A stretch of 64,000 nt of DNA from Candidatus Jettenia caeni (lineage in GTDB: Bacteria > Planctomycetota > Brocadiia > Brocadiales > Brocadiaceae): positions 1,302,401 to 1,366,400 of the forward strand of contig BAFH01000003.1 of NCBI GenBank assembly GCA_000296795.1, given 5' to 3'. Position 1 is the stretch's first letter, and the number at the start of each line of letters is the position of its first letter. Positions 24,595-40,753 of this stretch are shown here, one piece after another. The position numbers and the translations under genes were made by a program. Under the pieces are notes generated by a model. That model made no database searches, was not told where the DNA came from, and worked only from the letters and a program-made list of their open reading frames with translations.

Positions 24595-24760
24595 TACAAG
24601 GAAAATAAGCCCTCATGGTAGTAGTTTTATGTCCTTTTTATGCTTCCGAGATACAAGGATGATTTGGATGGGAATATTTTAACCTTTTCCTGACTTGTTT
24701 ATCGATCGTATTTTAATTTACCCACAATTTCCTTTGTCTTTTACTCTTATTTATTAACCA

Positions 24761-25000
24761 CATTCTCGGATAGCCTATAATTACTAACCGTCATCAGTGG
24801 AAGAGCGAGGAGGCTATCTCTGCTTATTGGGGACAACAGAAGGTGGAATATATCTTTTAAAATCTGAAAAACCCTTTTTACTTGGCAGTACGGCCCCAGT
24901 ATCACTGGACAGACCAGAAGATTCACGTTCACGGATTTATTTGTGTCCTTGCATTTCTTCTGGGTATGGTTGTTTACAAAAGAGCCAAAGAACAAGTCCA
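24761..25000 (+). pseudogene. IS1634/IS4-type transposase C-terminal remnant
   Basis: In one plus frame with two in-frame stops: HILG*PIITNRHQWKSEEAI, then AYWGQQKVEYIF*NLKNPFY, then PQYHWTDQKIHVHGFICVLAFLL. This is the C-terminal Glu motif region of IS1634-like transposases (YxxxxxVExxFRxLKxP....RPxYHWTxxxIxxHxF). The 5' part and the ends of the element are not recognisable. It follows the rpoB-like pseudogene and adds to the IS graveyard. Confidence 0.7.
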
Positions 25001-25116
25001 TTTCCAGGGTTCATTCCATACCCTAAATGTATAGTCTAGCGTGGTTTGTCAGATATTACACGGTAACTTATTATTAAGAATCACACATTGATGATGACAC
25101 ATGTTCTGAAGAGGTA

Positions 25117-26181
25117 CTAACCTTTCGTTTGGTTTCTTCTCGTGCTAACCCTTTGTTTCCAGTCTCTCTTAACTCTTCCATCGTCATCTTCGTCATAAAT
25201 TTCACCTAAGACTTCTTCTACAATATCCTCCAATGTTACAATGCCCATAACTTGATTGTCTTGACGTACAATGGCCATATGAATCCGATTTCCCTGAAAA
25301 TCCTTAAGCATTTTGAGAATGGATTCATTCAGATTCACAAAGTAAGGTTTACGGAGTAGGCTGGTTAAAGAGAATTCTGTTTTGGTATCCATCATAGCGA
25401 TAAATTCCTTTGTGTGAAGAATACCAATTACCTGGGGCTCGATTTCGTCTGATATGACGGGCAGTCTTGTGTGTCCGCAATCAATAATAATTTTTAATAT
25501 TTCTTCCTTGCCCATAGAGTTTCGAATCGTTGTTACCCGGGAAAAGGGAACCATGGCCTCTGATGCTTTCTTAAAGCGTAAAGTAAATAAATTCAAAATG
25601 TAATCTCTGTGAAATGAGTGCAGAGATCTTAAAGAAAGCTCTGATACCCCCGCTCCTTCTTCCGAAGAAAGGAACGAGTTAATACCTACGAGCGAAAGAA
25701 ATTTTACTGTTGATTGCTCCAGGATATGGACAACAGGTGTTGCAATCTTTGTCATAATCGTTAAGAGCCGGCTAGAAGCCAAAGATACCTCTTCGGGGTA
25801 ACGGATTGCGATCGCTTTCGGTATCAACTCGCCGATAATAACGGAAAAAAAGGTGAATGGGATAACGAAAAGTACAATTCCAACAAATTCAGCCGTTGTT
25901 CCGGAAATCCCTAAAAAGCCCTTCATATATGGCAGAATAGATTTTATTACTTTGCCACCTCCAAGCGCTGCAGATAAAGCCCCAATCAGCGTAATACCTA
26001 TCTGGATAACGGCAAAGGTCCTTTCCGGGCGTGCTCGTAAATCAAGGAATATTTTGGCAGTTTTATTGCCTTTAAAAGCCATATCTCTTAAAAGCGGGAC
26101 ATTGGTAGAAGCAAATGCCATTTCTATACATGAAAGTACACCATTAAAAAAAAGCAATATAATTACTATTATCCATTCCAT
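25117..26181 (-). CDS. CNNM/DUF21 and CBS-pair membrane protein
   Basis: 354 residues. The N-terminal DUF21 (CNNM) domain has about four membrane segments (3-20, 55-75, 95-120, 130-150) and the typical IEMAFASTNVPLLRDMA, IGITLIGALSAALGGG and IIGELIPKAIAIRYPE. Two CBS domains follow (about 205-330), ending in GIVTLEDIVEEVLGEIYDEDD. The family is linked to magnesium/cobalt export or haemolysin-like proteins. The C-terminal CorC/HlyC domain is absent, giving a short form. It lies 77 bases inside the right IS4 copy and looks intact. Confidence 0.88.
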   Translation of the reverse strand: MEWIIVIILLFFNGVLSCIEMAFASTNVPLLRDMAFKGNKTAKIFLDLRARPERTFAVIQIGITLIGALSAALGGGKVIKSILPYMKGFLGISGTTAEFVGIVLFVIPFTFFSVIIGELIPKAIAIRYPEEVSLASSRLLTIMTKIATPVVHILEQSTVKFLSLVGINSFLSSEEGAGVSELSLRSLHSFHRDYILNLFTLRFKKASEAMVPFSRVTTIRNSMGKEEILKIIIDCGHTRLPVISDEIEPQVIGILHTKEFIAMMDTKTEFSLTSLLRKPYFVNLNESILKMLKDFQGNRIHMAIVRQDNQVMGIVTLEDIVEEVLGEIYDEDDDGRVKRDWKQRVSTRRNQTKG

Positions 26182-26258
26182 AATTTAGATTTAGATGACT
26201 ACTTAATTCAAAAACTTTATAGCTTATACAATTGAGCAAACAGATATTTTAATAATAA

Positions 26259-27654
26259 CACATAAGTTGCGCAGAAATAGGATAAATTTGTCCAAGAGTA
26301 GCCAAATACCAGGAAATTAAGGACCGTATGGCTGAAAAAGCCTGAAAAATAAGGGTTGAGAACAGTCCCAACGTATGGCATTCTTTATGAAAGAATAGTT
26401 CAAGTATTTTTCATAAGGAGAAGCCACCATGAAGAAACCATTCTCAATCCCTTTGCTTTCACAGATGCTGTTTCACCGTACCCCTAAATCCGTTCAGGAA
26501 AAACTTATTGCTGTTTATCTGTGGACACTAATGACTTATTGGGGTCATTTCAGTATCAGCTTAGTTGCCCAATATCTCAAACGACATAAAGCACAAGTAT
26601 CCAGACACATGAAGAACAATCTATTCTTAGATAATCTCTCTCAGAAAATGCTTCCCAAAGAACTCTCCGGAAGAATTGGGAAAAAGGCACATCTGATTAT
26701 CGATTCTACAATGAAGGCCAAAAGAGGGAAAAAGCTCTGCAATCTTCAGAAGTTCAAGACTTCCCGTGGATTCATTATTGGCCACTGTTTTGTCTTTGCC
26801 CTGCTTATCTGTGAAGACAATTCATCATGGATTATAGCCGTAAAACCCTATCTTACCAAAGCATTTTGTAGAAGAACCAACCAAGAGTTTAAGACCCAAA
26901 ACCAATTAGCCGTAGAGATCTTACAGGAGGTCTCTCTTCCGTTAGAAACCCATGTCATCGTGGTTGCCGACTCTGCCTTTGTAGCGCACTTTATCGTATC
27001 AGAAATTACCACTCATCCCCAATGGTCATTTGTCAGTTCTTTAGACTCCAATCGAAAGATTACCATCAAGGGATACACCCGGCATACTGCTGATTTTAAG
27101 AAAGAATACTTACCAGCCCTTAAAAAAATATCCATTTCTTGTAATGGACGAAAAAATACTTTAAAAGTTATGTCAATCAGCGCTGAAGTATCAAAGGTTG
27201 GCCCTGCCACCGTAGTGCTCTCTCAGCGTGATCGTCAAACCCTTGCCCTTATAGGTGTTGGTAAAAGACTTTCTCTCAGAGCAATCTGTTATGCCTATCT
27301 CTTGCGATGGAGAATAGAGATTCTCTTTAAGGAACTCAAACAGTATCTGCATTTTGGCTCGTATCATTGCAGAGATTTTGAAGCTTATATGAACCATATT
27401 CTTTTGGTGATTCTGGCATATAACATTCTGAAGTCTCTGTATCCAAAATTTTCAATTGCTGAAGCGAAAAAACAGGTAAGTCAGTCTTCCCAAGCAGTAT
27501 TTTTGTACGAACTGAAGCATGACTTAACAAAATTTCACGGCAATAGAATCGTTAAGAACAAGATTTTTCAGGCTCTCTCAGCCATGACTGGCATCTTTCC
27601 CTTATCTATGGCTGGTTAGCACAATTTTTGTCTGGTTTATGCGCAACTTATGTG
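26259..27654 (+). mobile_element. IS4-family insertion sequence, right copy
   Basis: A 1396-bp element with the same terminal repeats (CACATAAGTTGCGCA) as the left copy, in inverted orientation. AATAA lies before the left end and again just after the right end (one G between), a possible short target duplication. Confidence 0.9.
26429..27619 (+). CDS. IS4-family DDE transposase (right copy)
   Basis: 396 residues, identical to the left copy (17348-18538) except for Gly instead of Ala about eight residues from the end. It has the same DDE residues and YREK signature. Both copies look intact, and near identity implies recent transposition or ongoing gene conversion. Confidence 0.95.
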   Translation: MKKPFSIPLLSQMLFHRTPKSVQEKLIAVYLWTLMTYWGHFSISLVAQYLKRHKAQVSRHMKNNLFLDNLSQKMLPKELSGRIGKKAHLIIDSTMKAKRGKKLCNLQKFKTSRGFIIGHCFVFALLICEDNSSWIIAVKPYLTKAFCRRTNQEFKTQNQLAVEILQEVSLPLETHVIVVADSAFVAHFIVSEITTHPQWSFVSSLDSNRKITIKGYTRHTADFKKEYLPALKKISISCNGRKNTLKVMSISAEVSKVGPATVVLSQRDRQTLALIGVGKRLSLRAICYAYLLRWRIEILFKELKQYLHFGSYHCRDFEAYMNHILLVILAYNILKSLYPKFSIAEAKKQVSQSSQAVFLYELKHDLTKFHGNRIVKNKIFQALSAMTGIFPLSMAG

Positions 27655-27743
27655 GAATAACAGAAAATATTTTCAAATACCATTAAAGTATATGACAAAC
27701 CAAAGGAGCCATATTTGCCAGTAAATTTGTTCTTACCTTCTTT

Positions 27744-28439
27744 CTACAAATGTTTGCTCTTAAGAGATAATGAGTATTGAATGAGTTGTGTTTTAAAGGA
27801 GCGTGTTGTCTGCACAATAGTATCACTGCAAATAATTGCAGAACAAATTGCAAGGCATGATCCCCCGGCGTTTAATATATCATTGATATTTTCAAGATTA
27901 ATACCGCCAATAGCAACAAAGGGGATAGTAATTTCTCGTTTTACCTGTTTTAAATAATCCAGACCTACAGGAGGTTCATAATCTTTTGTTCCTGTGTAAA
28001 AAATAGGCCCAACGCTTATATAATCTGCACCTTCTCTTTGTGCCTCTCGTGCCTGAACGATAGTATGGGTAGAGATCCCTACTATTTTGCTATACCCAAT
28101 AATCTTGCGTGCAGCAGAGATGTTTATATCAGATTGGCCAATATGCAATCCATCTGCATCTGCTTTTTTTGCAATCTCCGCTCGATCATTTACAATAAAA
28201 AGAGTTTTCGATTGAAAGGTTATTTTCTTAAACTCCTTGGCTAAAGTAAGAAATGTACTGTCAGGCATTGTCTTTTCCCGTAATTGTACAATATCTGCGC
28301 CGCCTTGAATAACATCCTCCAACGTTGTTAACACAGGTTTCTTTACAAGGTTAGAACTTATTATGACATAGAGTTTTATGTCTGAAAAATCTCTCAAAAA
28401 ATCTTGTTTGATTGTCGTTTTTATTAGCTGTTGGTTCAT
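27744..28439 (-). CDS. thiE: Thiamine-phosphate synthase
   Basis: 231 residues, a TIM-barrel enzyme joining the pyrimidine and thiazole halves of thiamine. Signatures: GGADIVQLREK (pyrimidine and diphosphate binding), FIVNDRAEIA, ADGLHIGQSD, ADYISVGPIFYTGTKDY and FVAIGGINLENI. Cytoplasmic. It stands alone here with no other thi gene nearby and sits just outside the right IS copy. I see no TPP riboswitch upstream. Confidence 0.95.
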   Translation of the reverse strand: MNQQLIKTTIKQDFLRDFSDIKLYVIISSNLVKKPVLTTLEDVIQGGADIVQLREKTMPDSTFLTLAKEFKKITFQSKTLFIVNDRAEIAKKADADGLHIGQSDINISAARKIIGYSKIVGISTHTIVQAREAQREGADYISVGPIFYTGTKDYEPPVGLDYLKQVKREITIPFVAIGGINLENINDILNAGGSCLAICSAIICSDTIVQTTRSFKTQLIQYSLSLKSKHL

Positions 28440-28450
28440 TGATTATTGTA

Positions 28451-28478
28451 TTGACTCTCATTTAATGTTTGATATAAT
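28451..28478 (+). promoter_or_regulatory. Strong sigma-70-type promoter upstream of purF
   Basis: TTGACT (28451-28456), a 16-base spacer and a perfect TATAAT (28473-28478). Transcription would start about 365 bases before the purF ATG, giving a long leader. Confidence 0.6.
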
Positions 28479-28852
28479 TGTTGTAGTTATTTTTCCTGCC
28501 AAATATTATTAAAACAAATCTTATATGAGCCTGTAAATCACAAAAGGGCATAAAAATGTGATGCCGAACTTTATAGTTGGTATGAAGCAGGTGATAAATT
28601 TCCACACGATGGGTTTTTTCGTCTCAAATAATCTTGTAAGAAAAATATATATGTTTTAGTAATCGTTCTATAAATAGGTCGGAAACTATCCCTCTTTACA
28701 CTATAAGGGGATGGAGGGATAGTGATAAGTTCATAGATCCTGCTGGATATTGGGTAATTATCCTCTTTTTATTGTAGTTTTATACGAAAATAGATACAAG
28801 GATTATCACATAATTCTTAAATATTTATTAAAGAAGGATAGGTTATAGAGAA
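28479..28852 (+). promoter_or_regulatory. Long purF 5' leader with a 10-bp hairpin
   Basis: No coding frame is seen in this stretch. It holds the inverted repeat ACTATCCCTC (28685-28694) and GAGGGATAGT (28714-28723), a perfect 10-bp stem with a 19-base loop. The loop itself contains ATAAGGGG, which could pair with the CCCTC side, so two folds compete. I do not recognise a known riboswitch class. Confidence 0.4.
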
Positions 28853-30271
28853 ATGTCAGACGCAAAAGATCATTGCGGTTTAATTGGAGTTTATGGATGT
28901 GAAGATGCTGCTGAGAGAGTTTATTATGGTTTGTATTCCCTGCAACATCGTGGAGAAGAAAGCGCTGGAATTGCTTCAACAAATGGAAAAGATATTATTT
29001 GTCATAAAGGGATGGGTTTGGTAAGTGAAGCTATCAAGCCAGATATGCTCAAGTCCTTAAAAAATCCTGTTGCTATAGGTCATGTTCGATATTCAACAAT
29101 TGGTTCTAATAACATTGGTAACGCACAACCATTATTAGTTGATTACTACAAAGGAAAAGTTGCCGTTGCCCACAATGGACAATTAACCAATGCAAAAAGA
29201 TTACGCGAAGAATTTGAGGCCAATGGTTCCATATTCCATACAACCTCTGATACAGAAGTAATTGTTCATCTTATGGCAAAACCGTTACATATGATGCAAA
29301 AGAGCTTATCGCCGGTGTTAAGCCAATTGCATGGTTCTTTTTCACTTCTGTTTTTAACGCCGGATGAGATGGTAGGGGTTCGCGATCCTCACGGTTTTAA
29401 GCCTTTAGCCCTCGGAAAATTAAATCATGGTTATGTAATGGCCTCTGAGACTTGCGCCCTGGATCAGGTAGGCGCCGAATATATTCGTGATATTAACCCC
29501 GGGGAAGCGGTCTATGTTAGCAAGAATGGAATCCAGAGTGAATATTATTGTCCCCAAAGACAAATTAAGCCTGCCTTTTGTATTTTTGAACTTATATACT
29601 TTTCCAGACCTGATAGTAAGATCTATGGAGAGAGTGTACATTTATTCCGTAAAAGATTAGGAGCTAAACTTGCGGAAGAGTCCCCGGTAGATGCTGATGT
29701 AGTAATTTCTGTCCCTGAAGGAGGAAATTCTGCTGCAATCGGGTATTCTCATGCCTCAGGGATACCTATCGATCGTGGGTTTATCCGTAATCATTACGTA
29801 GGCAGGACGTTCATATTGCCGGAACAGGAACGAAGACACCGTGTCGTAGAACTCAAGTTAAATCCTTTAAGAGAGACTGTAGAAGGGAAACGGGTCATCG
29901 TTATTGATGATTCCATTGTAAGAGGAACGACATCGAAATCCAGAATCGGGTTGTTGCGAAGGGCGGGAGCGAAGGAAATTCACTTGAAGATTAGCTGCCC
30001 TCCTCATCGTTATCCCTGTTATTACGGGATTGATTTCCAACATAAAGGTGAGCTTATTGCTGCACATCATACTATAGAGGAGATACGGAAGTTTTTAAAT
30101 GTGGAGAGCTTGAGCTATTTGAGTATAGATGCGATGATGAGCTGTACAACACAATCTCAAGAGCGTTTCTGTAATGCTTGTTTTACGAGCAGATATCCCA
30201 CTCCTATAGAAGAGAATACGAAGAAACTCGTCGAAAGGGAAGTTGTAAGAGAGATTAGTAAAGTTAATTGA
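28853..30271 (+). CDS. purF: Amidophosphoribosyltransferase
   Basis: 472 residues. It catalyses the first committed step of purine synthesis, making phosphoribosylamine from PRPP and glutamine. A short leader (MSDAKDH) precedes the glutaminase nucleophile Cys in HCGLIGVYG, and is presumably cleaved. The glutaminase half has SLQHRGEESAGI and GHVRYST. The PRPP loop is VIVIDDSIVRGTTSK (about residue 345). C-terminal cysteines RFCNACFTSRYP match the Bacillus-type enzyme, which binds a 4Fe-4S cluster. The next gene starts one base after its stop, so they are co-transcribed. Confidence 0.95.
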   Translation: MSDAKDHCGLIGVYGCEDAAERVYYGLYSLQHRGEESAGIASTNGKDIICHKGMGLVSEAIKPDMLKSLKNPVAIGHVRYSTIGSNNIGNAQPLLVDYYKGKVAVAHNGQLTNAKRLREEFEANGSIFHTTSDTEVIVHLMAKPLHMMQKSLSPVLSQLHGSFSLLFLTPDEMVGVRDPHGFKPLALGKLNHGYVMASETCALDQVGAEYIRDINPGEAVYVSKNGIQSEYYCPQRQIKPAFCIFELIYFSRPDSKIYGESVHLFRKRLGAKLAEESPVDADVVISVPEGGNSAAIGYSHASGIPIDRGFIRNHYVGRTFILPEQERRHRVVELKLNPLRETVEGKRVIVIDDSIVRGTTSKSRIGLLRRAGAKEIHLKISCPPHRYPCYYGIDFQHKGELIAAHHTIEEIRKFLNVESLSYLSIDAMMSCTTQSQERFCNACFTSRYPTPIEENTKKLVEREVVREISKVN

Positions 30272-30272
30272 T

Positions 30273-31274
30273 ATGTTTGCAAACAGCTTCTACCTCATAA
30301 AAGGCATCTTAGGCAGAATTTTTTATAGTATTCCTCAAAAACCAGAACGTATCCAGATTGAGATTACCAATCGATGTAATTACACGTGTGGTATGTGCCC
30401 CAGAGAATCCTTCCATCTGCCAGAAAAAGACATTTCATTTAACCTCTTTACAAAAATTATTGATCATTTAACGCAAAATAATTTTTACCATTACAACCTT
30501 ACTCTTACTGGATGGGGTGAGCCCTTACTACATCCGGAGTTGATAAATATGATTATTTATACGAAAGGTAAAGGACATAGCGTTGGTGTGACAACGAATG
30601 GTTTGCTGCTGGCCTCCTTTGTAGAAAAATTTATCGAGATATCGCTGGACAAATTAACTATCTCCTTAGATAGTGTGGAGGAATATAATGAAACAGGAGA
30701 ATGCCATCCCTATAATAAGATTGTGCAAAAGAATCTAGAGTTACTTGTCCGATTACGGAATACCAGAAAAAAACCGCTTGTCACGGTGCAAATAACTATG
30801 CATAATAAACAACAATGCCTGAAGACGGTTAGATTTGCTGCGGAGATAGGAGTTGATCGTGTATTTCTGGTACGATTACATATACCTTTTGGTATGCAAA
30901 GCTTCAAAAGGCCTCATTTAAAAGAGGAATTAGAAATCTATGAAGAGGTTGATGAGATAGCCAGAAAATATGGATTACAGATCGATAACAACTATGCAGC
31001 TTTCAGCAATGGTTTGCTTCGGTTGCTCTATAAGCAATTACGTCCCATAATGTATCGGTTTGATAAGTACTGTCCAAAACCGTATGACTACTTGTATATT
31101 ACTATTGATGGTAAGATAACCCCGTGCTGTGATCTGCCGCGATATGAAGTAGGTAATATAGTAAAACAAAATATTAACGAGATATGGCATAGTGAGAATA
31201 TGCAATACTTTCGCAAGCATCAGGATGAAGTATGTGGTAAGTGCGATGCATTGAGGTTGAGGCATTTAAATTAA
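30273..31274 (+). CDS. Radical SAM protein with SPASM-like C-terminus
   Basis: 333 residues. The radical SAM cluster site is CNYTCGMC (Cx3Cx2C, near residue 34), in EITNRCNYTCGMCPRES. SAM-binding LTGWGEPLLHPEL follows at about 80. The C-terminus has extra cysteines: YCPKPYDYLYITIDGKITPCC (in part) and CGKCDAL, which match a SPASM-type domain binding an additional Fe-S cluster. Such enzymes modify peptides or other substrates by radical chemistry; the substrate is unknown. It is the second gene of the purF-led cluster, one base after purF. Confidence 0.85.
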   Translation: MFANSFYLIKGILGRIFYSIPQKPERIQIEITNRCNYTCGMCPRESFHLPEKDISFNLFTKIIDHLTQNNFYHYNLTLTGWGEPLLHPELINMIIYTKGKGHSVGVTTNGLLLASFVEKFIEISLDKLTISLDSVEEYNETGECHPYNKIVQKNLELLVRLRNTRKKPLVTVQITMHNKQQCLKTVRFAAEIGVDRVFLVRLHIPFGMQSFKRPHLKEELEIYEEVDEIARKYGLQIDNNYAAFSNGLLRLLYKQLRPIMYRFDKYCPKPYDYLYITIDGKITPCCDLPRYEVGNIVKQNINEIWHSENMQYFRKHQDEVCGKCDALRLRHLN

Positions 31275-31359
31275 AACCATTCATAATTGATATGGATGAA
31301 CAGCTAAGCGATTAGATGGTTGTTGGTTTGTTATGGAGAAACATTTTTACGATTAGACC

Positions 31360-32781
31360 ATGAGGATTACTTTTCTCATACCACCTCCTATTGATGGAAA
31401 GATTCCTGAACGGGTTTCGGGATGTGCCTATCTGCTCTATTACGTTCCGAATATTTTCCTTCTCAGTGCTGCTGCTGTATTGGAAAAGGAAGGTTATAAG
31501 ATCAGATATGTTGAGAGTACTGTTAAGAAATGGGATCGAAAATATTTCCTGAATTTTTTGAAGGAAGATTTAAGCGATATATATTGCTTCTATGCTGTCA
31601 ATCTATCTCAAAAAACGGATATTCAGGCGCTAAGGGATATTCGTGATATACGAAGAGATATACCGGTTATTTTTTTTGGTCCTGCACCCTCTGATAGACC
31701 TGCAGAATTTGTCGTAGATACAAACACCTATACAGTTAGGGGTGAGCCTGAACATACAATGCTTGAACTGGCAAGAGCACTTGAGACCAAATCGAGTATT
31801 GAGGGTATACAAAGTATATCCTTCAAAAACAATAACGAAATTGTTCATAATACAAATAGAGAACCGATAGAAGATTTGGATGTATTACCTTTCCCAGCCA
31901 GACATCTCCTGGAAGAGAGGGATATTTACTATAATCCTAAATTAGGGGAGCGTCCATTTACGGCTGTTTGTACCTCAAGGGGTTGCTCGTATCGATGTAT
32001 TTACTGTGTTCCATCTTCCCTGAGTTTCTCAAGGGAACTCGAATATAAACACCATGTAGCCAGGAAGCCACCGGTAAGAAAGAGATCCCCTGAACATATT
32101 ATCGAGGAGTTTAAGCTGCTAAAATCACAAGGTTACAAGGCTGTGAATGTCCAGGATGATCAGTTCGTGTGGGGTGAAGAGCGGACAATTAAGATTTGTG
32201 AAGGGATACAAGATTTGGGTATTGTGTGGGGCTGTTCTGCGAGATCTGATCATCTGAATGAGGCGATTGTGAGTGCCATGGCATCAGCTCATTGCAAATT
32301 TATCGATCTTGGTGTTGAATCCTTTAATCAGGAAATATTAGACTATATAAAGAAAGATATCGATGTGAGAAAGAATGAAGAGGCTATTAAACTGGTAAAA
32401 AGATATGGTATATCGGCCAAAATCAATATCATGTTTGGTGCATCGCCAATGGAGACATCGGCTACTATTCAAAAGAATATGGAAGAAGTGAAGCGATTGA
32501 AGGTAGATCAGGTGATGTATAACATTGCAAATCCGTTTCCTGGTACAGAATTTTATCAAATTGCCAAAGAGAATAAATTATTTGTGTATGGTGATTATAG
32601 ACCTGTTAATGTGGCAAAAGAAGCTAATATTACCTATTCTCATCTTAGTAAGACAGACCTTGAAAAGGCTGTACGTCGTGCTAACTTCAAATTTTTTCTG
32701 ACACCGCGCTTTATGTTAAAAAATGTACGGCGGTTAGGTTCTCTCGATTCTTTGAAAGCTATGCTTAAAAAGCTTTTTTAG
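31360..32781 (+). CDS. B12-binding radical SAM protein
   Basis: 473 residues. The N-terminal part (about 1-150) resembles the cobalamin-binding domain (IPPPIDGKIPERVSG, then PNIFLLSAAAVLEKEGY). The radical SAM domain begins near residue 195 with SRGCSYRCIYCVPSS, the Cx3Cx2C cluster site. Further parts are VNVQDDQFVWGEERT, IDLGVESFNQEIL and INIMFGASPMET. Members of this class methylate or rearrange lipids, antibiotics and cofactors. The product here is unknown. It lies between the SPASM protein and a glycosyltransferase and is likely in the same pathway. Confidence 0.85.
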   Translation: MRITFLIPPPIDGKIPERVSGCAYLLYYVPNIFLLSAAAVLEKEGYKIRYVESTVKKWDRKYFLNFLKEDLSDIYCFYAVNLSQKTDIQALRDIRDIRRDIPVIFFGPAPSDRPAEFVVDTNTYTVRGEPEHTMLELARALETKSSIEGIQSISFKNNNEIVHNTNREPIEDLDVLPFPARHLLEERDIYYNPKLGERPFTAVCTSRGCSYRCIYCVPSSLSFSRELEYKHHVARKPPVRKRSPEHIIEEFKLLKSQGYKAVNVQDDQFVWGEERTIKICEGIQDLGIVWGCSARSDHLNEAIVSAMASAHCKFIDLGVESFNQEILDYIKKDIDVRKNEEAIKLVKRYGISAKINIMFGASPMETSATIQKNMEEVKRLKVDQVMYNIANPFPGTEFYQIAKENKLFVYGDYRPVNVAKEANITYSHLSKTDLEKAVRRANFKFFLTPRFMLKNVRRLGSLDSLKAMLKKLF

Positions 32782-32798
32782 AGACAAAAAGTTATCTC

Positions 32799-33851
32799 AT
32801 GAAATTTTCTATCCTCGTTCCTGCTTACAATGAGGAGCAATCTATCGCTTCTTGTTTAAACTCCCTTATTGTACTTCCTGATAATAAGGAGATTATTGTT
32901 ATTGATGATGCCTCAACTGATCTTACCGTTCAGACTATTGAGAGATTTTTAAACAGGGGTATTATTTTAGTACGAAGGGAAAGAAATGGCGGGAGGGCTG
33001 CTGCCCTAAATTCAGGATTACAAAGGTCTACAGGTGATATTGTTGTTACAACAGATGCAGATACTGTTGTACCTCCTAACTGGTTACAAAGGTTTGAATC
33101 ATATTTTAAACAGCAAGGCGTCGTTGCGGTAGGGGGAGCTTATCAAGCCCGTAATAAGGAGAAACCGTTAGCGAATGCAGTGAGTATCTTGGACCAAATA
33201 CTGAATGGGATGTTTAAAAAATCAGTTATTCCTAATAAATTATCCGGTGTAAATTCAGCTATCCACAGAAGCACCCTACTCAATTCAGGCGGTTTTAATG
33301 AGAGTTCCTGGTGGAATGAGGATTCCGAATTGGGCTGGAAATTGAAAGAGATAGGCAAGGTTATGTATGATCCTGATAATATGGTAAATACCACATATCC
33401 CGATACATGGACAGATATTTGGAAAAGGAAGTTTTATTGGGGATATGCAATGGGTCTTAAATTTAAAAAGCAAGTTCCCTATAATATAAGATTATGGCTG
33501 CGCCCTTTGCTATTTATGGCGCTTTTTATGAGTCTTCTGGCGTTTTGGGTAACGATACCTTGCGGAATAAATGTGTATTTGGTGCCTGGCTCAATTTTTT
33601 TTATTTTATTAAGTACATTAACTGTCTTTTTCATTCCACTTGGTATGATTGTGATGTTAAGAAATGGTGATCGTGAATTTTTTAAAACACTATCTTTACT
33701 AGCAATCCTGCCTGTATTTCGCGAGTTTGCTTATACCTATGGAATGTATTGGGGATTTTGTAACGGCCATAGAGAAATGATAAAGTCGACATGGAAAGAT
33801 GAATTACATTGCCGAGGTACAAAGGACAGAGAGAAGAACATCAGTGTATAG
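32799..33851 (+). CDS. Family 2 glycosyltransferase with membrane C-terminus
   Basis: 350 residues. The GT-A fold is clear: FSILVPAYNEEQSIASCLNSL (in part) at the N-terminus, IVIDDASTDLTVQ (nucleotide binding), VVTTDADTVVPPNW (the DxD metal site, about residue 90) and ESSWWNEDSELGWKL (the ED catalytic-base region, about 170). Three hydrophobic segments (about 235-258, 265-285 and a weaker one near 300) place the C-terminus in the membrane. It transfers a sugar from a nucleotide donor; the acceptor is unknown. It follows the two radical SAM genes closely, so glycosylation of their product is a reasonable inference. Confidence 0.88.
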   Translation: MKFSILVPAYNEEQSIASCLNSLIVLPDNKEIIVIDDASTDLTVQTIERFLNRGIILVRRERNGGRAAALNSGLQRSTGDIVVTTDADTVVPPNWLQRFESYFKQQGVVAVGGAYQARNKEKPLANAVSILDQILNGMFKKSVIPNKLSGVNSAIHRSTLLNSGGFNESSWWNEDSELGWKLKEIGKVMYDPDNMVNTTYPDTWTDIWKRKFYWGYAMGLKFKKQVPYNIRLWLRPLLFMALFMSLLAFWVTIPCGINVYLVPGSIFFILLSTLTVFFIPLGMIVMLRNGDREFFKTLSLLAILPVFREFAYTYGMYWGFCNGHREMIKSTWKDELHCRGTKDREKNISV

Positions 33852-34029
33852 AGGGAATGCTTGTACCGGGAAGTTTTGGGAATTTAAAGGATGTATTTGG
33901 ATTGTAGATTATCTCGCCAGTTTTCTGTAACTTTCAATTTACTATTACGACATAAAACTTTTTAACTTACTATAAAATAGAGGATTTTGAGCAAGAAATC
34001 GTTTAAGATTTCATGCGCTATGGATATTT

Positions 34030-35097
34030 ATGGCAAAAAAAATAAAAGGACTTACCTATAAAGATGCAGGTGTTGATATTGATACAAAAGGTCAATTTAC
34101 GACAGATATCTATACGAAAATGCGAACAACCTTCCGTTCACAGGTAATTGAGAATCCTGATGGGTTTGGTGGTTTGTTTGCTTTAAATTCACGCACCAAA
34201 AAATATCGTCAGCCGGTGCTTGTTTCCTCGACAGACGGCGTAGGCACGAAACTAAAAATTGCCTTTATGATGAAGAAACACAGTACCATTGGAATTGACC
34301 TTGTTGCTATGTGTGTTAATGATATTGTGGTTTTAGGGGCGGAACCGCTCTTTTTGCTAGACTATTTGGCTAGCAGCAGGATTGTACCGAAGGTTTTCCA
34401 TGAGGTATTAGATGGTATTGTAGAGGGGTGTCGTCAGGCAGGTTGTGCACTTATCGGTGGTGAAACCCCGGAAATGCCAGGGTTCTATCATGAGGGAGAA
34501 TATGATATTGCAGGCTTTGTAGTAGGCGTTGTTGAAAAGGATCGAATTATCGATGGTAAAACAATAAAACCGGGAGATGTAGTTATTGGTTTGAGCTCAA
34601 GTGGTGTCCATAGTAATGGATTCTCTCTTGCAAGAAAAGTTTTTTTTGATAAAGCGAAGATGAAGATAACCCAAAGGCTTACTAAATATGGATTAAAGAC
34701 AACGTTGGGAGAAGAATTGCTGACGCCGACCAGAATTTATGTGGAGCCTATTCTAAAGATTCTAGATAAGCATAAGACAAAAAAGATTATAAAAGGAATG
34801 GCGCATATTACCGGTGGTGGACTTTTGGAGAACATACCTCGTATCTTGCCTGATGGTTGTGCTGTTAAGTTGGAAAGAGCTAAATGGAGTGTTCCAAAGA
34901 TATTTAGCATCATACAAGATTTAGGTAAGATTAAAGACGAAGAAATGTTTCATGTATTTAATATGGGTATTGGTATGGTGCTAATTGTATCCAAATCAGA
35001 AGTGGAATCTGTCTTACGTGATTTTAATATTTCAAAAGAAACGGGAACAATTATCGGTGAGATTGTGAAAGGAGATAAAATTATACATATCATATGA
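34030..35097 (+). CDS. purM: Phosphoribosylformylglycinamidine cyclo-ligase
   Basis: 355 residues. It closes the imidazole ring of the purine precursor (FGAM to AIR, using ATP). Signatures: GLTYKDAGVDID at the start, STDGVGTKLKIAF, MCVNDIVVLGAEPLF, GGETPEMPGFYHEGEYD and GMAHITGGGLLENIPRILP (in part). It lies about 180 bases after the glycosyltransferase on the same strand, in the purF cluster, so purine genes bracket the radical SAM block. Cytoplasmic. Confidence 0.96.
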   Translation: MAKKIKGLTYKDAGVDIDTKGQFTTDIYTKMRTTFRSQVIENPDGFGGLFALNSRTKKYRQPVLVSSTDGVGTKLKIAFMMKKHSTIGIDLVAMCVNDIVVLGAEPLFLLDYLASSRIVPKVFHEVLDGIVEGCRQAGCALIGGETPEMPGFYHEGEYDIAGFVVGVVEKDRIIDGKTIKPGDVVIGLSSSGVHSNGFSLARKVFFDKAKMKITQRLTKYGLKTTLGEELLTPTRIYVEPILKILDKHKTKKIIKGMAHITGGGLLENIPRILPDGCAVKLERAKWSVPKIFSIIQDLGKIKDEEMFHVFNMGIGMVLIVSKSEVESVLRDFNISKETGTIIGEIVKGDKIIHII

Positions 35098-35158
35098 GAG
35101 AATTTTGTTTATAATTATTAATTTCTGACTACTGTATATATCATTGAATAATGGACCG

Positions 35159-35893
35159 CTACGTTGTTGAGTATTCATTTCTTCTGAGTTGTTTGCCTTT
35201 TACCACGCCATACATTGCACAAATTATTAAATAGCAGCTCAATGTCGTAGATAATGCTAGTTCAGGAGTAATCACGAAAAATAAGATTGCTGCAGAAAAT
35301 TCTAATACCATAGCCAAAATACCCTGTTTAATGCCAATCTTACCCGTGATATTGAAAAAGGGAATTTTACTAACCATAAATATACCAAGTGCAAAAGTTA
35401 CAAAGGGTAAAAGTGTTATAACAATATCTGTTCCAAATCTCGTTTGTATAAAATGATCCAGAATAATAAGTTGTGCAACCGTTCCCCCTGAAAGTGTACT
35501 GGGCAATCCAGTGAAGAAATGCCTCGGTATATTTGCTCCTTCATCTTTTTGAGCGTTAAATCTTGCTAATCGGAAAGCGGCACACATCATAAAAAATAAT
35601 CCAATACTCCATAGTATGATATGAGTGTAATCAATGCATATTTGTATCATAAGTATGGCAGGTGCAATACCAAAAGTTACTAAATCTGCCATAGAATCTA
35701 ACTGGGCGCCTGTCTTGCTCGTACTTTTCATCATACGCGCTAATCTTCCATCGAAGGCGTCTAATGCCATAGCTGCTATAATCAACCATGCTGCTATTTC
35801 AAATCTCTGGTTCAAAATGCACAAGATTGAAATAAATCCACATATTATATTTCCCATAGTTACTAAAGTAGGTAGTATTTCTTTTATTTTCAC
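35159..35893 (-). CDS. pssA: CDP-diacylglycerol-serine phosphatidyltransferase
   Basis: 244 residues from a GTG at 35893, chosen because AGGAG lies 7 bases before it; an upstream ATG adds twelve residues that do not fit the family. The CDP-alcohol phosphotransferase motif is present as DAFDGRLARMMKSTSKTGAQLDSMAD (in part), matching D-G-x2-A-R-x8-G-x3-D-x3-D. Six to eight hydrophobic segments place it in the inner membrane. It makes phosphatidylserine from CDP-diacylglycerol and serine, the precursor of phosphatidylethanolamine. Sequence alone does not fully exclude other CDP-alcohol acceptors. Confidence 0.85.
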   Translation of the reverse strand: MKIKEILPTLVTMGNIICGFISILCILNQRFEIAAWLIIAAMALDAFDGRLARMMKSTSKTGAQLDSMADLVTFGIAPAILMIQICIDYTHIILWSIGLFFMMCAAFRLARFNAQKDEGANIPRHFFTGLPSTLSGGTVAQLIILDHFIQTRFGTDIVITLLPFVTFALGIFMVSKIPFFNITGKIGIKQGILAMVLEFSAAILFFVITPELALSTTLSCYLIICAMYGVVKGKQLRRNEYSTT

Positions 35894-36582
35894 TACAAAT
35901 CTCCTGGAGAAGTCAGAAAAATAATACATAGTGCAGTAAACAAAATGGCGAAAAAATTCTTTCTATAAACTTTGTGATCTTTCCCGCAGACTACTTAACA
36001 AAAACAGTGCCTTGCTGTGATAATAAACCTAATTTATAATTAATTCTTTAAATACTTGGTATAATTATATTTATAAAAAAGATAAAATCAGACAAAATAT
36101 TGATAGATTACTATAATCTCTATAAATTGCAGTATATTTACTGCACTTATCAAATATAATTACTGCGGTAAAGAAATGCTTATAAGTGATTAGGTAGTGT
36201 AATTTGGTTAAAATAAAAGTATGTAATAAATAGTCTACAGTTAACAAAATTAAGGAGTATATCGTATTTAAAAAATACTGCATTTGGTACTAAAAATAAC
36301 CTTGACTTTTAGAGCCTTTTTACTTGACAGTGTTATTTGATTGTGTTAGCTTGTTACAAATTTATATCTTCTTTATGGTTAAGTAAACTTGTAAATTTCT
36401 GGGAAGAGACACTTTAAAAGATATTGAAGATATATTTTAAAAAAGGATTAGGCAATTCCAGATCGAATAGTATATGATATTTTGTGAATAAGATCTTGAG
36501 TAGGTGTAAATAATTTCAATAAATTATCATGTTCTTGCTAAGTCTGAAAAGAAACTTTAGTTAAATATACGGGAGAAAAAGA
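35894..36582. other. Long AT-rich intergenic region
   Basis: About 690 bases between divergent pssA and the aquaporin gene, with no convincing coding frame. One TTGACA (36324-36329) with a poor -10 (TAGCTT, 17 bases on) could start aquaporin transcription, with a leader over 200 bases. Nothing else is recognisable. Confidence 0.35.
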
Positions 36583-37272
36583 ATGAATGCGTACAAAAAG
36601 TATATAGCCGAGCTAGTTGGAACATTTGCATTGGTATTTATTGCGGCTGGTTCTGTATGCGCCGATTTTTATTTAAGGCAGGCAGGTGGGCAAGGACTGG
36701 GTCTTTTAGGTATTTCTATAGCATTTGGTGTAGTAGTAACTGCCGTTATTTATGCCACGAGTTATGTTTCTGGTTCTCATGTTAATCCTGCTGTTACTAT
36801 ATCCTTCTGGATTACGAAAAGGATGGATCCTAATACTGCAATCATGTATATAATTTCCCAAATAGCTGGCGCAACATTAGCAGGACTTGCACTAAAAACC
36901 CTTTTTCCCGATGCAGTTAAAACCGTATATTTAGGAACATGTATGTTAGCGCCAGGAGTTTCTATCGCGCGTGGGATACTCATGGAATTCATTATCAGTT
37001 TCCTTTTGATATTTACTATTTATGGGACACTTGTGGACAAAAGGGCTTCTGCTGGATTTGCAGGAGTAGCCATAGGATTGGTAATACTCTTCGGAGCAAT
37101 GATTGGTGGTATAATTAGTGGCGGTGCAATGAATCCCGCTCGTGTCTTTGGTCCGGCTATTGCCTCAGGTCAGTTTACTCATCATTATGTATGGTGGATC
37201 GGTCCAATATTAGGAGGGATTGTGGCAGGTTTTGTCTACGATAAACTCTTTGCTGACAGCAAAAAATCATAA
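36583..37272 (+). CDS. Aquaporin (MIP family channel)
   Basis: 229 residues with six membrane segments and the two half-helix NPA motifs: SGSHVNPAVT (about residue 65) and SGGAMNPARVFGPA (about 185). The Arg just after the second NPA is the usual selectivity-filter residue. The size and the second motif favour a water-type aquaporin over a glycerol facilitator, though other small solutes are possible. Inner membrane. A GGGAGA ribosome site precedes the ATG and a hairpin terminator follows the gene. Confidence 0.92.
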   Translation: MNAYKKYIAELVGTFALVFIAAGSVCADFYLRQAGGQGLGLLGISIAFGVVVTAVIYATSYVSGSHVNPAVTISFWITKRMDPNTAIMYIISQIAGATLAGLALKTLFPDAVKTVYLGTCMLAPGVSIARGILMEFIISFLLIFTIYGTLVDKRASAGFAGVAIGLVILFGAMIGGIISGGAMNPARVFGPAIASGQFTHHYVWWIGPILGGIVAGFVYDKLFADSKKS

Positions 37273-37352
37273 TTGCAATTAAAGCAGGATACAATTTATT
37301 CATAGCTGATAAAGTTATGTGAAAACACACCCTGTTAGCTTAAAAAATTAAG

Positions 37353-37391
37353 CGGCAACGTGTAAGATGTACCTTACATGTTGCCGTTTTT
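37353..37391 (+). terminator. Rho-independent terminator after the aquaporin gene
   Basis: A 14-bp stem with one G-T mismatch, CGGCAACGTGTAAG and CTTACATGTTGCCG, encloses a 6-base loop and is followed by TTTTT. It ends the aquaporin transcript. Confidence 0.85.
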
Positions 37392-37407
37392 ATTGAGAGT
37401 TCGATTT

Positions 37408-38055
37408 ATGTTTGATATTGATACTGTGCTGAAGCTTATTGAGCGGGAAAATAAAAAGTTTAACGTACCGGTTGTTACAGTCATTTCTAAAGAACGAACT
37501 CCATTTCATGTCTTGATCTCATGTATTTTAAGCCTTAGGACAAAGGACAAGACTACTCATGAGGCCTCTCATCGGCTCTTTGCTGTGGTTAATACCCCTA
37601 AAGATATGGCAGAAATTCCCACGGAGAAACTAGAGAAGCTTATCTATCCCGTAGGGTTCTATCGGGTAAAGGCAAAGAATATTAAAGAGATTTGCAAGGA
37701 GTTGGTAAAAACATACAGGGGTAAAGTGCCAGACGAAATTGATGAGTTATTGAAATTGAGTGGAGTGGGACGTAAGACTGCGAATTTAGTAGTAACCTTG
37801 GGGTATAAAAAACCTGGTATTTGTGTGGATACCCATGTTCATCGGATTACTAACCGATGGGGGTATGTTAAAACAAAAAATCCGAAGGAAACCGAATTTG
37901 CGCTTCGTGAAAAACTTCCAAAAGAATATTGGCTTATCATCAATGATCTTCTTGTTACATTTGGCCAAAACATCTGCGTACCAATCTCTCCCAAATGCAG
38001 CTTTTGTCCTGTTAATATGTATTGCCAAAAAGTAGGTGTGACAAGGCATCGTTAA
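37408..38055 (+). CDS. nth: Endonuclease III
   Basis: 215 residues. It is a DNA glycosylase and AP lyase that removes oxidised pyrimidines. The helix-hairpin-helix LSGVGRKTANLV contains the catalytic Lys, and VDTHVHRI holds the catalytic Asp. The C-terminal 4Fe-4S cluster ligands are complete: CVPISPKCSFCPVNMYC is exactly Cx6Cx2Cx5C. The ATG at 37408 was chosen because an upstream ATG (37378) lies inside the terminator hairpin. Confidence 0.95.
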   Translation: MFDIDTVLKLIERENKKFNVPVVTVISKERTPFHVLISCILSLRTKDKTTHEASHRLFAVVNTPKDMAEIPTEKLEKLIYPVGFYRVKAKNIKEICKELVKTYRGKVPDEIDELLKLSGVGRKTANLVVTLGYKKPGICVDTHVHRITNRWGYVKTKNPKETEFALREKLPKEYWLIINDLLVTFGQNICVPISPKCSFCPVNMYCQKVGVTRHR

Positions 38056-38176
38056 CGGTTATTGTACTATCCCTGCTATGAGATGGTACCTGAGAATGTT
38101 TAATTCTTCAAGACACGAATCAATTCCCGTTCTTGCTGATTAGATAGTAAGGGAACAATGATCTTATGAAAATGGT

Positions 38177-38995
38177 TTATGAATTCTTAAAGGTTTTTTG
38201 GATAATCTTTAGCATATCATCGTGAACACCTTTATTAGCAGCGATGATGTTACCAGTTTTCAGATACTGGTTACTCCCATTAAAGTCTGTAACCATACCA
38301 CCTGCCTCTTCGACCAAAAGGGCTCCTGCTGCCATGTCCCATGGTGATAAAGCACATTCGAAGAAACCACCAAAGATGCCTTCTGCTGTGTATGCAAGAT
38401 CAAGACAAGCAGAACCGCCTCTTCTGATGCCGGAAGCATGCATAAATAACTCTCTAAACGATTTAAGGTAAGCATCTATAAAATCCTTTATCCGAAAAGG
38501 AAAACCCGTTGCAATCAGGGAATTATGTAAGATTTTGGGATGGGAGATATTCATACGTCTGTTATTTTTAAATGCCCCCCGTTTTTTAATGGCAGAATAG
38601 ATAATTTCTCTCAGGGGTTCGTAAATAAGCCCAACCGTTAATTCTCCTTCAATTTCCAGAGCAATAGAGACGGCGAAACTCGGAAGGCCATGGATATAGT
38701 TTGAAGTGCCATCTAGTGGATCTATAATCCATAAGAAAGGGGAGGAACGGGAGTGTCCTTCTGCTGATGATTCTTCTGCAAGAAAGTCATGATTGTTAAA
38801 ATGAGATTTAATAATAGTTTTGATAAGTTCTTCAGATCTCTTATCTACATCAGTTACAAAATCATTCTTGGCTTTTTCATCAATCATGGAGGGGCACAGC
38901 TTCCCAAAGTGTTCCTTTAAAATAATACCAGCCTGGAGAGCAGCCTCTCTTGCAATATCGAGATAGTTATCTACATCATTTGGATTTTGTATCAT
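38177..38995 (-). CDS. suhB: Inositol-1-monophosphatase family protein
   Basis: 272 residues. Metal-binding motifs are present: LAEESS (about 84), WIIDPLDGTSNYIHGLPSF (about 97) and SPWDMAAGALLVEEAGG (about 225). The family dephosphorylates inositol phosphate; bacterial SuhB also takes part in rRNA transcription. It precedes purC on the same strand with about 30 bases between. The C-terminus is a normal length. Confidence 0.9.
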   Translation of the reverse strand: MIQNPNDVDNYLDIAREAALQAGIILKEHFGKLCPSMIDEKAKNDFVTDVDKRSEELIKTIIKSHFNNHDFLAEESSAEGHSRSSPFLWIIDPLDGTSNYIHGLPSFAVSIALEIEGELTVGLIYEPLREIIYSAIKKRGAFKNNRRMNISHPKILHNSLIATGFPFRIKDFIDAYLKSFRELFMHASGIRRGGSACLDLAYTAEGIFGGFFECALSPWDMAAGALLVEEAGGMVTDFNGSNQYLKTGNIIAANKGVHDDMLKIIQKTFKNS

Positions 38996-39022
38996 TTTTG
39001 CTGTCTTTATGACGAAGGTGTT

Positions 39023-39922
39023 TTAAGTAAGAACTTTACCCGTAAGTGCCTTATAAGCACTGAGATATTTTTCTGAAGTTTTTTGGATAATATCCGGAGG
39101 AAGTGTTGGCGCTGGTGGTTTCTTGTTCCATTGGAGGTTTTCGAGATAATCCCGGATAAATTGTTTATCATAGGATGGTTGTGGTTTCCCAGGTTTATAG
39201 CCTTCTAGTGGCCAAAAGCGCGAAGAATCAGGTGTGAGTACCTCATCAATAAGTATTGTCCTGTTATTCTGAGTAATACCCCATTCAAACTTGGTATCGC
39301 AGATGATAATACCTCTGCCTGTTGCATAGCGGTTTGCCTTAAGATAAACCTCCATGCTTTTATCCTTCAATTCTTCGGCTTGCTTTTTACCAATCAAATC
39401 TACAACCCTTGAAAAAGGGATATTTTCATCATGTCCTGTTGTTGCTTTGCTTGAAGGGGTAAAGATGGGTTCCGGGAGCTTATCCGACTCTTTAAGTCCC
39501 GGAGGCAATTTTATTCCGCAAATTGATTGGGTGCTTTGATACTCCTTCCAGCCAGAACCTGCTAAATAGCCGCGAATTATACATTCTACCGGAAAGACCT
39601 TGACTTTCTTTACCAACATGGAGCGACCTTGCAGAATATTTTTATGTTGTGCGATGATGTTGCTGCCCATTTTCTCGATTTGGGTAGTTATAAGGTGGTT
39701 CTCAATGCAATCAGAAGTATAGTTAAACCAGAATTCAGAAAGGCCTGTGAGTACCTTTCCTTTGAATGGGATACCATCTGAAAGAACTACATCAAAGGCC
39801 GAGATGCGATCTGTGGTGACGATTAACAAATAGTCATTAATTTCGTAAATATCACGTACTTTACCACGGCTGTGTAATTTGAGTTCTGAGATTTGAGTAG
39901 TAAGCAGAGGATGGTTATTCAT
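39023..39922 (-). CDS. purC: SAICAR synthase
   Basis: 299 residues, the longer type of PurC. It joins aspartate to CAIR with ATP to give SAICAR in purine synthesis. Signatures: KVRDIYEI at the start, [20 protein letters not shown] (in part) and [16 protein letters not shown] near residue 110, plus [11 protein letters not shown] near 205 and [14 protein letters not shown] near 225. It is six bases downstream of the DnaJ-TPR gene, so these two and suhB form one minus-strand unit. Confidence 0.96.
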
Positions 39923-39928
39923 AATATA

Positions 39929-40753
39929 TTACATAGCAAAGTTTGGGTTATGTTGTTTCAGTTTTGTTTTAAGTTTATTTGCACCTTGAAGGTTAGGTTT
40001 TAACGACAGGGCAATATTAAGATATTTTAAAGCATTTTCATATTCTTTTAATTTGATATAGCATTCAGCCATTTTTTTGTAAATAAAGGCATTCTCGTTC
40101 TTGTATAGCTTGAGTTTTAGCACCTTTTCGTAAATAATCAATGCTTTTTCTGGAGGTGCACATTTTGCGAGTTTACGACAATAGATATTCCTGATTCGCT
40201 CTTTAATTTCAGCAAGTAAATGATGACGATGCGTGCTGTCTCTTCCTCGTTCAAGTATAAATTCGTAAAATTCAATACAGATTTCATACTTTCCTAATTT
40301 CTCATAAGCTTCAGCTAATAAGAATTTGCAATCAACATAATCCCGATGATTTAAATGCAAAAGAAAATCAATATTTACATATTCTTCTGAGAGATGTTCA
40401 TATCTTTCAACTGCATTCCGCATACGGCCGTTTAAAAGGTCGATAAAGATAGTGTGCGCCTGTGTCCGGATACTTGTATCAGTTTTTGAATTTTTTTCCT
40501 CTTTTTTATAGATTCGTGTTGTCTTGTAGGTTTGCAGGTGATGCTTATACAGCCTGTCATATTGTTCTCGAGCCGTTGAATCAGACAGAATTTTATACGC
40601 CTGGATAATAGTCTTCGTCTTTGATTCTGCCCACAGTTTGTTTTGACCATGAATATCCGGATGATATTTTTTGATAAGTGTTCGAAATGAGCGTTTAATC
40701 TCTTCTTCACTTACTTCATGGTGTACTTCAAGAATATCGTAATAATTTACCAC
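39929..40753 (-). CDS. DnaJ-domain protein with TPR repeats
   Basis: 274 residues. A J-domain lies at the N-terminus (YYDILEVHHEVSEEEIKRSFR, in part) with the HPD motif in KYHPDIHG, so it should stimulate a DnaK chaperone. The C-terminal half has at least three TPR-like units, the last being YIKLKEYENALKYLNIALSLKPN (in part). No zinc-finger or C-terminal peptide-binding domain is present, so it is not DnaJ itself. It is the first gene of the purC/suhB unit. Function in this context is unknown. Confidence 0.85.
   Translation of the reverse strand: MVNYYDILEVHHEVSEEEIKRSFRTLIKKYHPDIHGQNKLWAESKTKTIIQAYKILSDSTAREQYDRLYKHHLQTYKTTRIYKKEEKNSKTDTSIRTQAHTIFIDLLNGRMRNAVERYEHLSEEYVNIDFLLHLNHRDYVDCKFLLAEAYEKLGKYEICIEFYEFILERGRDSTHRHHLLAEIKERIRNIYCRKLAKCAPPEKALIIYEKVLKLKLYKNENAFIYKKMAECYIKLKEYENALKYLNIALSLKPNLQGANKLKTKLKQHNPNFAM

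Follow-up and report, generated by a model that had tools for sequence, protein, structure and literature searches.

The purF-purM locus of Jettenia caeni

Here we analysed a 64,000-nucleotide stretch of the 4.09-Mb genome of Candidatus Jettenia caeni, an anammox bacterium of the freshwater type (the window; G000:C3:1302401-1366400), focusing on a three-gene cassette that lies between the purine genes purF and purM. It consists of two radical S-adenosylmethionine (SAM) enzyme genes, P0001 (30273-31274; 333 amino acids, aa) and P0002 (31360-32781; 473 aa), followed by a family 2 glycosyltransferase (GT2) gene, P0003 (32799-33851; 350 aa). The open reading frame (ORF) list confirms the order purF, two radical SAM genes, GT2 and purM on a single strand (+), with P0001 starting one base past the end of purF. 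The ORFs of purF (28853-30271, +; named by reading, without a family scan) and purM (34030-35097, +) are the first and last genes of the host operon. A reading made from the sequence alone had described this arrangement, including the one-base gap, and the coordinates and Pfam agree with it. Pattern matching found no + strand terminator-like sites among the five genes and no excess of promoter-like sites (28 vs 26.6 in shuffles), and in an Rfam scan of 24000-40000 no family, riboswitches included, reached its gathering score.

In Pfam, P0001 scores 56.5 bits for SPASM and 52.7 bits for Radical_SAM, above the respective cut-offs of 21.5 and 29.5, and its radical SAM cluster motif is CNYTCGMC at residues 35-42 (30375-30398, +). 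The CxxxCxxC motif and five C-terminal cysteines (C267, C285, C286, C321 and C324) are invariant in all 23 aligned sequences, nine of which come from distant Planctomycetota. SPASM enzymes with two auxiliary clusters need seven auxiliary cysteines, and the peptide-modifying SPASM enzymes are of this two-cluster type; the five in P0001 are too few for that layout. The pattern instead suggests a one-cluster, twitch-type enzyme with one four-cysteine site, as in BtrN, rather than a full SPASM enzyme. The best NCBIfam match, the tungsten-enzyme maturase TIGR04317, scores 138.7 bits and does not reach its cut-off of 380. One genome, G020, also contains a second, partial P0001 copy (residues 157-333, 73% identity; L119 14186-14716), about 7 kb past the full copy.

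P0002 contains a Radical_SAM domain (62.6 bits, cut-off 29.5) with the cluster motif CSYRCIYC at residues 209-216 (31984-32007, +), the three motif cysteines being invariant across 29 sequences. Its N-terminal domain resembles B12-binding PF02310 at 28.9 bits, below the cut-off of 32.1, and cobalamin binding is putative only. The structure model (pLDDT, the predicted local distance difference test score, 92.7) has AprD4 (6fd2) as its top PDB fold match, with Z 35.3 and 2.6 Å over 416 of 473 residues; this AprD4 structure was solved with the sugar substrate paromamine. CysS ranks second (Z 29.7), and the fold also matches the other cobalamin enzymes TsrM and OxsB (Z 27.7). AprD4 is the best PDB match by sequence as well, at 122.7 bits. 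Among NCBIfam models the best is HpnJ, both for P0002 (169.4 bits, cut-off 577.6 not reached) and for its relatives. Within the Jettenia genome P0002 is the third-ranked HpnJ scorer, the top protein, another gene, reaching 305.2 bits. None of the best 25 NCBIfam models listed for each of P0001, P0002 and P0003 passes its cut-off. The P0002 orthologs at L057, L058 and L059 (G025, G031 and G022; 500-505 aa) contain approximately 27-32 extra residues near residue 160.

P0003 matches Pfam Glycos_transf_2 at 118.6 bits (cut-off 23.3, passed). The stretches 237-255 and 266-284 are hydrophobic and, together with model helices at 231-255, 257-289 and 294-322, mark it as a predicted membrane protein, and its model (pLDDT 76.7) matches membrane GT2 enzymes. 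The DAD/DxD and ED motifs are present in 15/15 orthologs; QxxRW, the motif of processive synthases, is absent from the same 15. The best NCBIfam match is MftF (mycofactocin) at 103.3 bits, short of the cut-off of 280. The domain labels of the sequence-only reading hold in part: SPASM, Radical_SAM and GT2 pass in Pfam, with P0001 appearing to be a one-cluster twitch enzyme and the B12-binding label falling below its cut-off.

Conservation and the empty site

Orthologs were surveyed in 59 genomes of the order, 33 from the Brocadiaceae and 26 from other families. For each trio gene, 31 of the 33 Brocadiaceae genomes yielded an ortholog, and the missing ones fall in draft genomes that are 58-85% complete (P0001 in G007 and G027, P0002 in G018 and G027, the GT2 in G008 and G027). 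Compared with the Jettenia proteins, those of other genera are 77-84% identical for P0002 (full-length matches) and 67-75% for P0001; for P0003 the range is 60-79%, its top values coming from partial matches. Across the whole family P0002 is 77-98% identical. No trio orthologs were found in the 26 other-family genomes, where P0003 had no match at 1e-40, P0001 had one (G056, 30% identity) and P0002 had matches of about 30% only. The best of these P0002 matches were rejected as orthologs, since all 11 that were fetched (from 10 genomes) are closer to another radical SAM paralog of the Jettenia genome; in the control for this test, 9/9 outside relatives match P0002 by far best. Hydrazine synthase was found in 19/33 Brocadiaceae genomes and in 19/26 other-family genomes, and because the latter have no found orthologs, the trio is not shared by anammox bacteria in general.

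Gene order was examined at 30 further Brocadiaceae loci, with counts made only where the genes are visible. The GT2 lies directly 3' of P0002 in 28/28 family loci with both visible, and purM directly 3' of the GT2 in 26/27 on long enough contigs (exception, L050). At the other end, purF precedes P0001 in 24 of the 25 loci with a visible upstream gene (exception, L055 in G004), and these purF orthologs are 76-98% identical. Gaps within the cassette can be as small as approximately 25 and 3 bases (L053). The sequence-only reading would have failed had the three genes been adjacent in no related genome, which is not the case; they form a conserved unit.

The junction between P0001 and P0002 is the variable point. 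The two genes share one locus in 17 cases, with 1-4.3 kb between them in 10 of these. A conserved fourth gene was ruled out, the intervening ORFs being mostly unrelated across genomes; the junction is an insertion-prone site and not the place of an extra gene. The insertion-bearing junctions are those of L036, L037, L039, L044, L045, L047, L048, L052, L056 and L057, and by eye their ORFs are transposase-like in L037 and in some cases toxin-antitoxin-like. In Brocadia the block is split at this same junction, with purF-P0001 in 11/11 species and P0002-GT2 followed by purM in 11 matching loci; where P0001 and P0002 share a contig, in five genomes, the distance between them is 15 to 650 kb. At the 3' end, purM consists of two overlapping ORFs in G001 (L031 10439-11505) and G029 (L049), which reflects a frameshift or an assembly error.

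Outside the Brocadiaceae the site appears empty. purM was found in 24 of the 26 other-family genomes, and in 21 of these 24 purF is adjacent without the trio, ending approximately 10-230 bases ahead of purM. The three remaining cases are both genomes of family f5, in which the nearest 1.5 kb contains no purF, and G051, where the contig ends. In the genomes of family f4, pssA and nth follow purM, as in the Jettenia window. Most simply, the ancestor of the Brocadiaceae would have gained the trio by insertion at the purF/purM junction. Because the empty site points to insertion, and because pur genes were not seen beside the distant pairs described below, the purine genes look like a host operon rather than partners, and the cassette looks like a hitch-hiker in that operon rather than a contributor to purine synthesis. 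The tie to a purine operon in the sequence-only reading is not supported as a metabolic link.

Further upstream in the window, an ORF at 26429-27619 reads as an insertion sequence (IS) transposase (an unscanned reading) and lies between a 354-aa ORF labelled hlyC and thiE. It is probably a recent insertion, because two congeners (L031 and L032) lack an ORF at that place.

Pairings outside the Brocadiaceae

A profile of P0002 orthologs, run over 392 genomes of the phylum at 1e-60, recovered 23 Brocadiaceae and 15 other genomes. In 9 of these 15 non-Brocadiaceae Planctomycetota the P0002 homolog has a P0001-type gene upstream, as its immediate neighbour in eight and separated by a 228-aa ORF (1.1 kb) in the ninth (L101). 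When 17 genomes were searched with a P0001 profile, this upstream gene was the genome's best match in all nine; of the other eight, six have their best match elsewhere, and two, G415 and G076 (where the gene lies at the contig start), give none at 1e-12. Two further relatives came from a contig scan, one in a Bacteroidota metagenome-assembled genome (L092, 44%) and one in an unclassified bacterium (L094, 52%). Among 198 genomes of L092's order, the Bacteroidales, three carry a P0002 relative, including L092's own. A GT2 lies directly 3' of the P0002 homolog in five loci: L092, L115 and L116 (Bacteroidales), L094, and the planctomycete L104.

Neither a search covering L092, L094 and L095-L109 nor the ORF lists for the outside loci showed pur genes beside these pairs. 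For a base rate, we used 15 other radical SAM paralogs of the Jettenia genome: one lies directly before a GT2-like stretch and one directly after a weak (21%) P0001-like stretch. The neighbourhood without pur genes, which the sequence-only reading had proposed as a check, is thus conserved as two kinds of pair, radical SAM/radical SAM and radical SAM/GT2, in distant lineages. Together with the conservation in the Brocadiaceae, these pairs show that the gene order did not arise by chance.

In a maximum-likelihood tree (41 rows), P0002 groups with all of these relatives at a support of 100/100; the outgroup branches are long, and only forks within the P0002 family are used here. One clade comprises the Brocadiaceae, L094, the three Bacteroidales and L095, with a GT2 next in all non-Brocadiaceae members except L095. 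The other comprises Planctomycetota, with a P0001-type partner in 9 of 11 rows; L104 has a GT2 instead and L099 has neither. The Brocadiaceae, which have both partners, are sister to L094 (99/93) and not to the other Planctomycetota. This topology fits lateral acquisition and an assembly of both pairs, without giving a direction.

Several relatives lie near envelope genes, including a WaaP-family kinase and a GT2 (L098), WbqC (L096), a DegT aminotransferase and an O-antigen ligase (L095), and GT1/GT4 glycosyltransferases with a polysaccharide deacetylase (L099 and L104). At L097, L098, L100, L102, L103 and L106 (families f25 and f58), a conserved RNase Z-like gene, named by eye and 55-57% identical to the L098 copy, is placed divergently upstream of the P0001/P0002-type pair. 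Within the Jettenia genome itself, the top HpnJ scorer (305 bits; L183 3658-5759, G000:C4) has a GT2-like stretch directly 3' and another GT2 nearby that is 42% identical to P0003 over approximately 95 residues; this is perhaps a second radical SAM/GT2 unit of the genome.

A candidate sugar-remodelling cassette and its alternatives

Our best reading, offered tentatively, is that the enzymes of the cassette transfer a sugar of a lipid-linked envelope glycan and reshape it by radical reactions, a chemistry predicted by analogy. A sugar is favoured because AprD4 is the top match of P0002, HpnJ is its best NCBIfam model, cysteines of P0001 align with those of BtrN, and envelope genes neighbour the relatives. 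The trio is read as a unit because the pairings recur without pur genes against base rates of 1/15 each, and because of the empty site. In the proposed mechanism, a laterally assembled cassette would have entered the purF/purM junction in the ancestor of the family and would be transcribed from the purine operon. P0003 would move a sugar onto a membrane-bound acceptor, a lipid or polyprenyl carrier. P0002 would abstract a hydrogen from the transferred sugar and dehydrate, deoxygenate or ring-contract it, and P0001, with its BtrN-like auxiliary cluster, would carry out or finish an oxidation of that sugar unit. The cell envelope would thereby gain a rare sugar or cyclitol. The undescribed three-enzyme route of the sequence-only reading is kept here, with an envelope sugar or a lipid-linked product as its favoured outcome, and is not supported as a metabolic link to purines. 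We found no description of the cassette in the open-access PMC literature (supplements outside the scope of the search). A fuller version is more doubtful. In it, a membrane glycosyltransferase and two different radical SAM enzymes would form an envelope pathway not described before, whose lipid-linked sugar would end up in a deoxy, keto or carbocyclic form. This pathway would have been assembled in the Brocadiaceae from a Planctomycetota twitch/AprD4-like pair and a Bacteroidales AprD4-like/GT2 pair, and then locked into the purine operon.

Several observations weigh against an envelope-sugar cassette. Six loci of family f25 have no recognised envelope or glycosyltransferase gene beside the pair, as judged from ORF starts by eye with few Pfam scans; one f25 locus, L100, ends 165 bases past the P0002 homolog. 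Polysaccharide clusters often contain radical SAM genes, which weakens the argument from envelope neighbours. The Bacteroidales and L094 loci have no adjacent P0001-type gene, and the P0001 profile finds none in G415 (L092) and a weak match of 62.5 bits in G416 (L094). The GT2 of the Brocadiaceae and those of the outside loci belong to different GT2 subfamilies (29-31% over approximately 100 residues), and the GT2 partner may have been replaced. P0002 is also only third among the HpnJ-like proteins of its own genome, and AprD3, the reductase partner of AprD4, has no counterpart among the cassette genes.

Two alternatives place the trio in lipid synthesis. Ladderane synthesis has been proposed to involve radical SAM enzymes, among them one that has a B12 domain (PMC2649909, PMC13142503), and the sequence-only reading had raised this link; here the radical enzymes would close rings in ladderane or other fatty-acyl chemistry and the GT2 would add a head group. 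The Jettenia genome does contain hydrazine synthase, and its TIGR04072 gene, of the ladderane-named B12 radical SAM family (L187 3343-5668; G000:C3:1582803), lies directly after a weakly P0001-like stretch (21%) in a similar-looking tandem. Yet P0002 scores 65.5 bits on TIGR04072 against a cut-off of 360, and another gene of the genome passes with 417.6; relatives of P0002 with a GT2 occur in Bacteroidales, and no trio ortholog was found in the other families that have hydrazine synthase. Scalindua-type families make ladderanes. The candidates named in PMC2649909 sit in fatty-acid gene clusters and not at this locus. Family score, gene identity and distribution ruled the link out as the principal explanation, and it is highly improbable. 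A hopanoid head group, made by an analogue of HpnI-HpnJ leading to a cyclitol ether, is very unlikely. The order of a GT2 and a radical SAM gene recalls the HpnI/HpnJ layout (PMC12583986), HpnJ is the best model for P0002, and a hopene cyclase is present in the Jettenia genome and in 4/5 other Brocadiaceae tested. Against this, P0002 falls far below the HpnJ cut-off, and any specific relation was downgraded once two other proteins of the genome were seen to outscore it. Nor does the cyclase track the trio: it was not found in the complete, trio-bearing Brocadiaceae genome G011 or in the GT2-paired G415, G446, G555, G416 and G124 (a draft; the other four have no stated completeness), and one genome each of f2, f4 and f5 carries it without the trio. 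The lack of a G011 match at 1e-20, when 5/6 Brocadiaceae tested were positive, is unexpected for a complete genome assigned to Kuenenia, from which hopanoids are reported.

The three remaining alternatives concern other products or no shared product. P0001 and P0002 could mature a peptide or metal cofactor that the GT2 then glycosylates, in a mycofactocin-like manner, as the best models for P0001 (TIGR04317) and P0003 (MftF) would suggest. This is unlikely: all family scores are far below their cut-offs, the narrow L053 gaps leave no room there for a precursor-peptide gene, and P0001 appears to have a one-cluster twitch pattern, as opposed to the two clusters of peptide-modifying SPASM enzymes. 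We give little credence to action on purine-pathway nucleotides. The purF/purM position is retained in most family genomes, the split Brocadia halves stay with purF and with purM in 11/11 species, and OxsB, among the structural matches of P0002, contracts the sugar ring of 2'-deoxyadenosine monophosphate (PMC13142503). Opposed to this are the order's other families with adjacent purF-purM and no trio, the outside loci examined, which showed no pur gene beside the pairs, and a membrane GT2 with no obvious role on free nucleotides. Finally, the genes may be neighbours by inheritance only, with unrelated roles and an order kept by drift. The purM-pssA-nth order is also retained across families, so gene order changes slowly here, and P0001 and P0002 lie far apart in Brocadia. 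Such drift is improbable given the paralog base rates and the return of these pairings in distantly related lineages, another phylum among them.

If the envelope-sugar reading is correct, the anammox bacteria of wastewater plants would share a near-universal and strongly conserved cell-surface chemistry, to judge from P0002 between genera, that was not found in the order's other families. The few radical SAM systems that are known to reshape sugars would also gain a sugar-acting pair. Apart from its product, the locus, for which an empty site is visible, illustrates how insertion into a housekeeping operon can fix a cassette, and one candidate can be dropped from the search for ladderane genes.

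Compared with known systems, P0002 most resembles AprD4 of apramycin synthesis, described as a radical SAM diol dehydratase that works with a reductase partner to take off the C3 hydroxyl of paromamine (PMC5461906). The likeness covers the whole-length fold, well ahead of the next PDB entry. The differences are an identity of 20%, a score of 99.3 bits on NF033070 against a cut-off of 500, no aminoglycoside context seen around P0002, and no AprD3-like reductase in the cassette, the search being limited to the cassette genes. With the ladderane-named TIGR04072 enzyme, P0002 shares B12-like and radical SAM domains and a genome; the difference is that another gene fills that role. BtrN of butirosin synthesis is described as having one four-cysteine auxiliary cluster and oxidising a cyclitol alcohol (PMC9012708). 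P0001 likewise has a radical SAM core and one auxiliary cluster site, and its C267, C285, C321 and C324 align with cysteines of the BtrN C-terminal domain, although P0001 is longer and the alignment is weak (two stretches of about 20 bits each). P0003 differs from the processive membrane synthases in the absence of QxxRW and is otherwise like hyaluronan synthase, PcManGT and dolichyl-phosphate mannose synthase in its GT2 fold, DxD and ED motifs and C-terminal membrane helices. The cassette has no HpnK-type deacetylase and occurs in genomes without a detected hopene cyclase, which sets it apart from HpnI-HpnK-HpnJ. In that system HpnJ is described as converting the glucosamine installed by the glycosyltransferase HpnI (PMC12583986), and the cassette likewise has a glycosyltransferase gene beside a radical SAM gene whose product may act on the transferred sugar.

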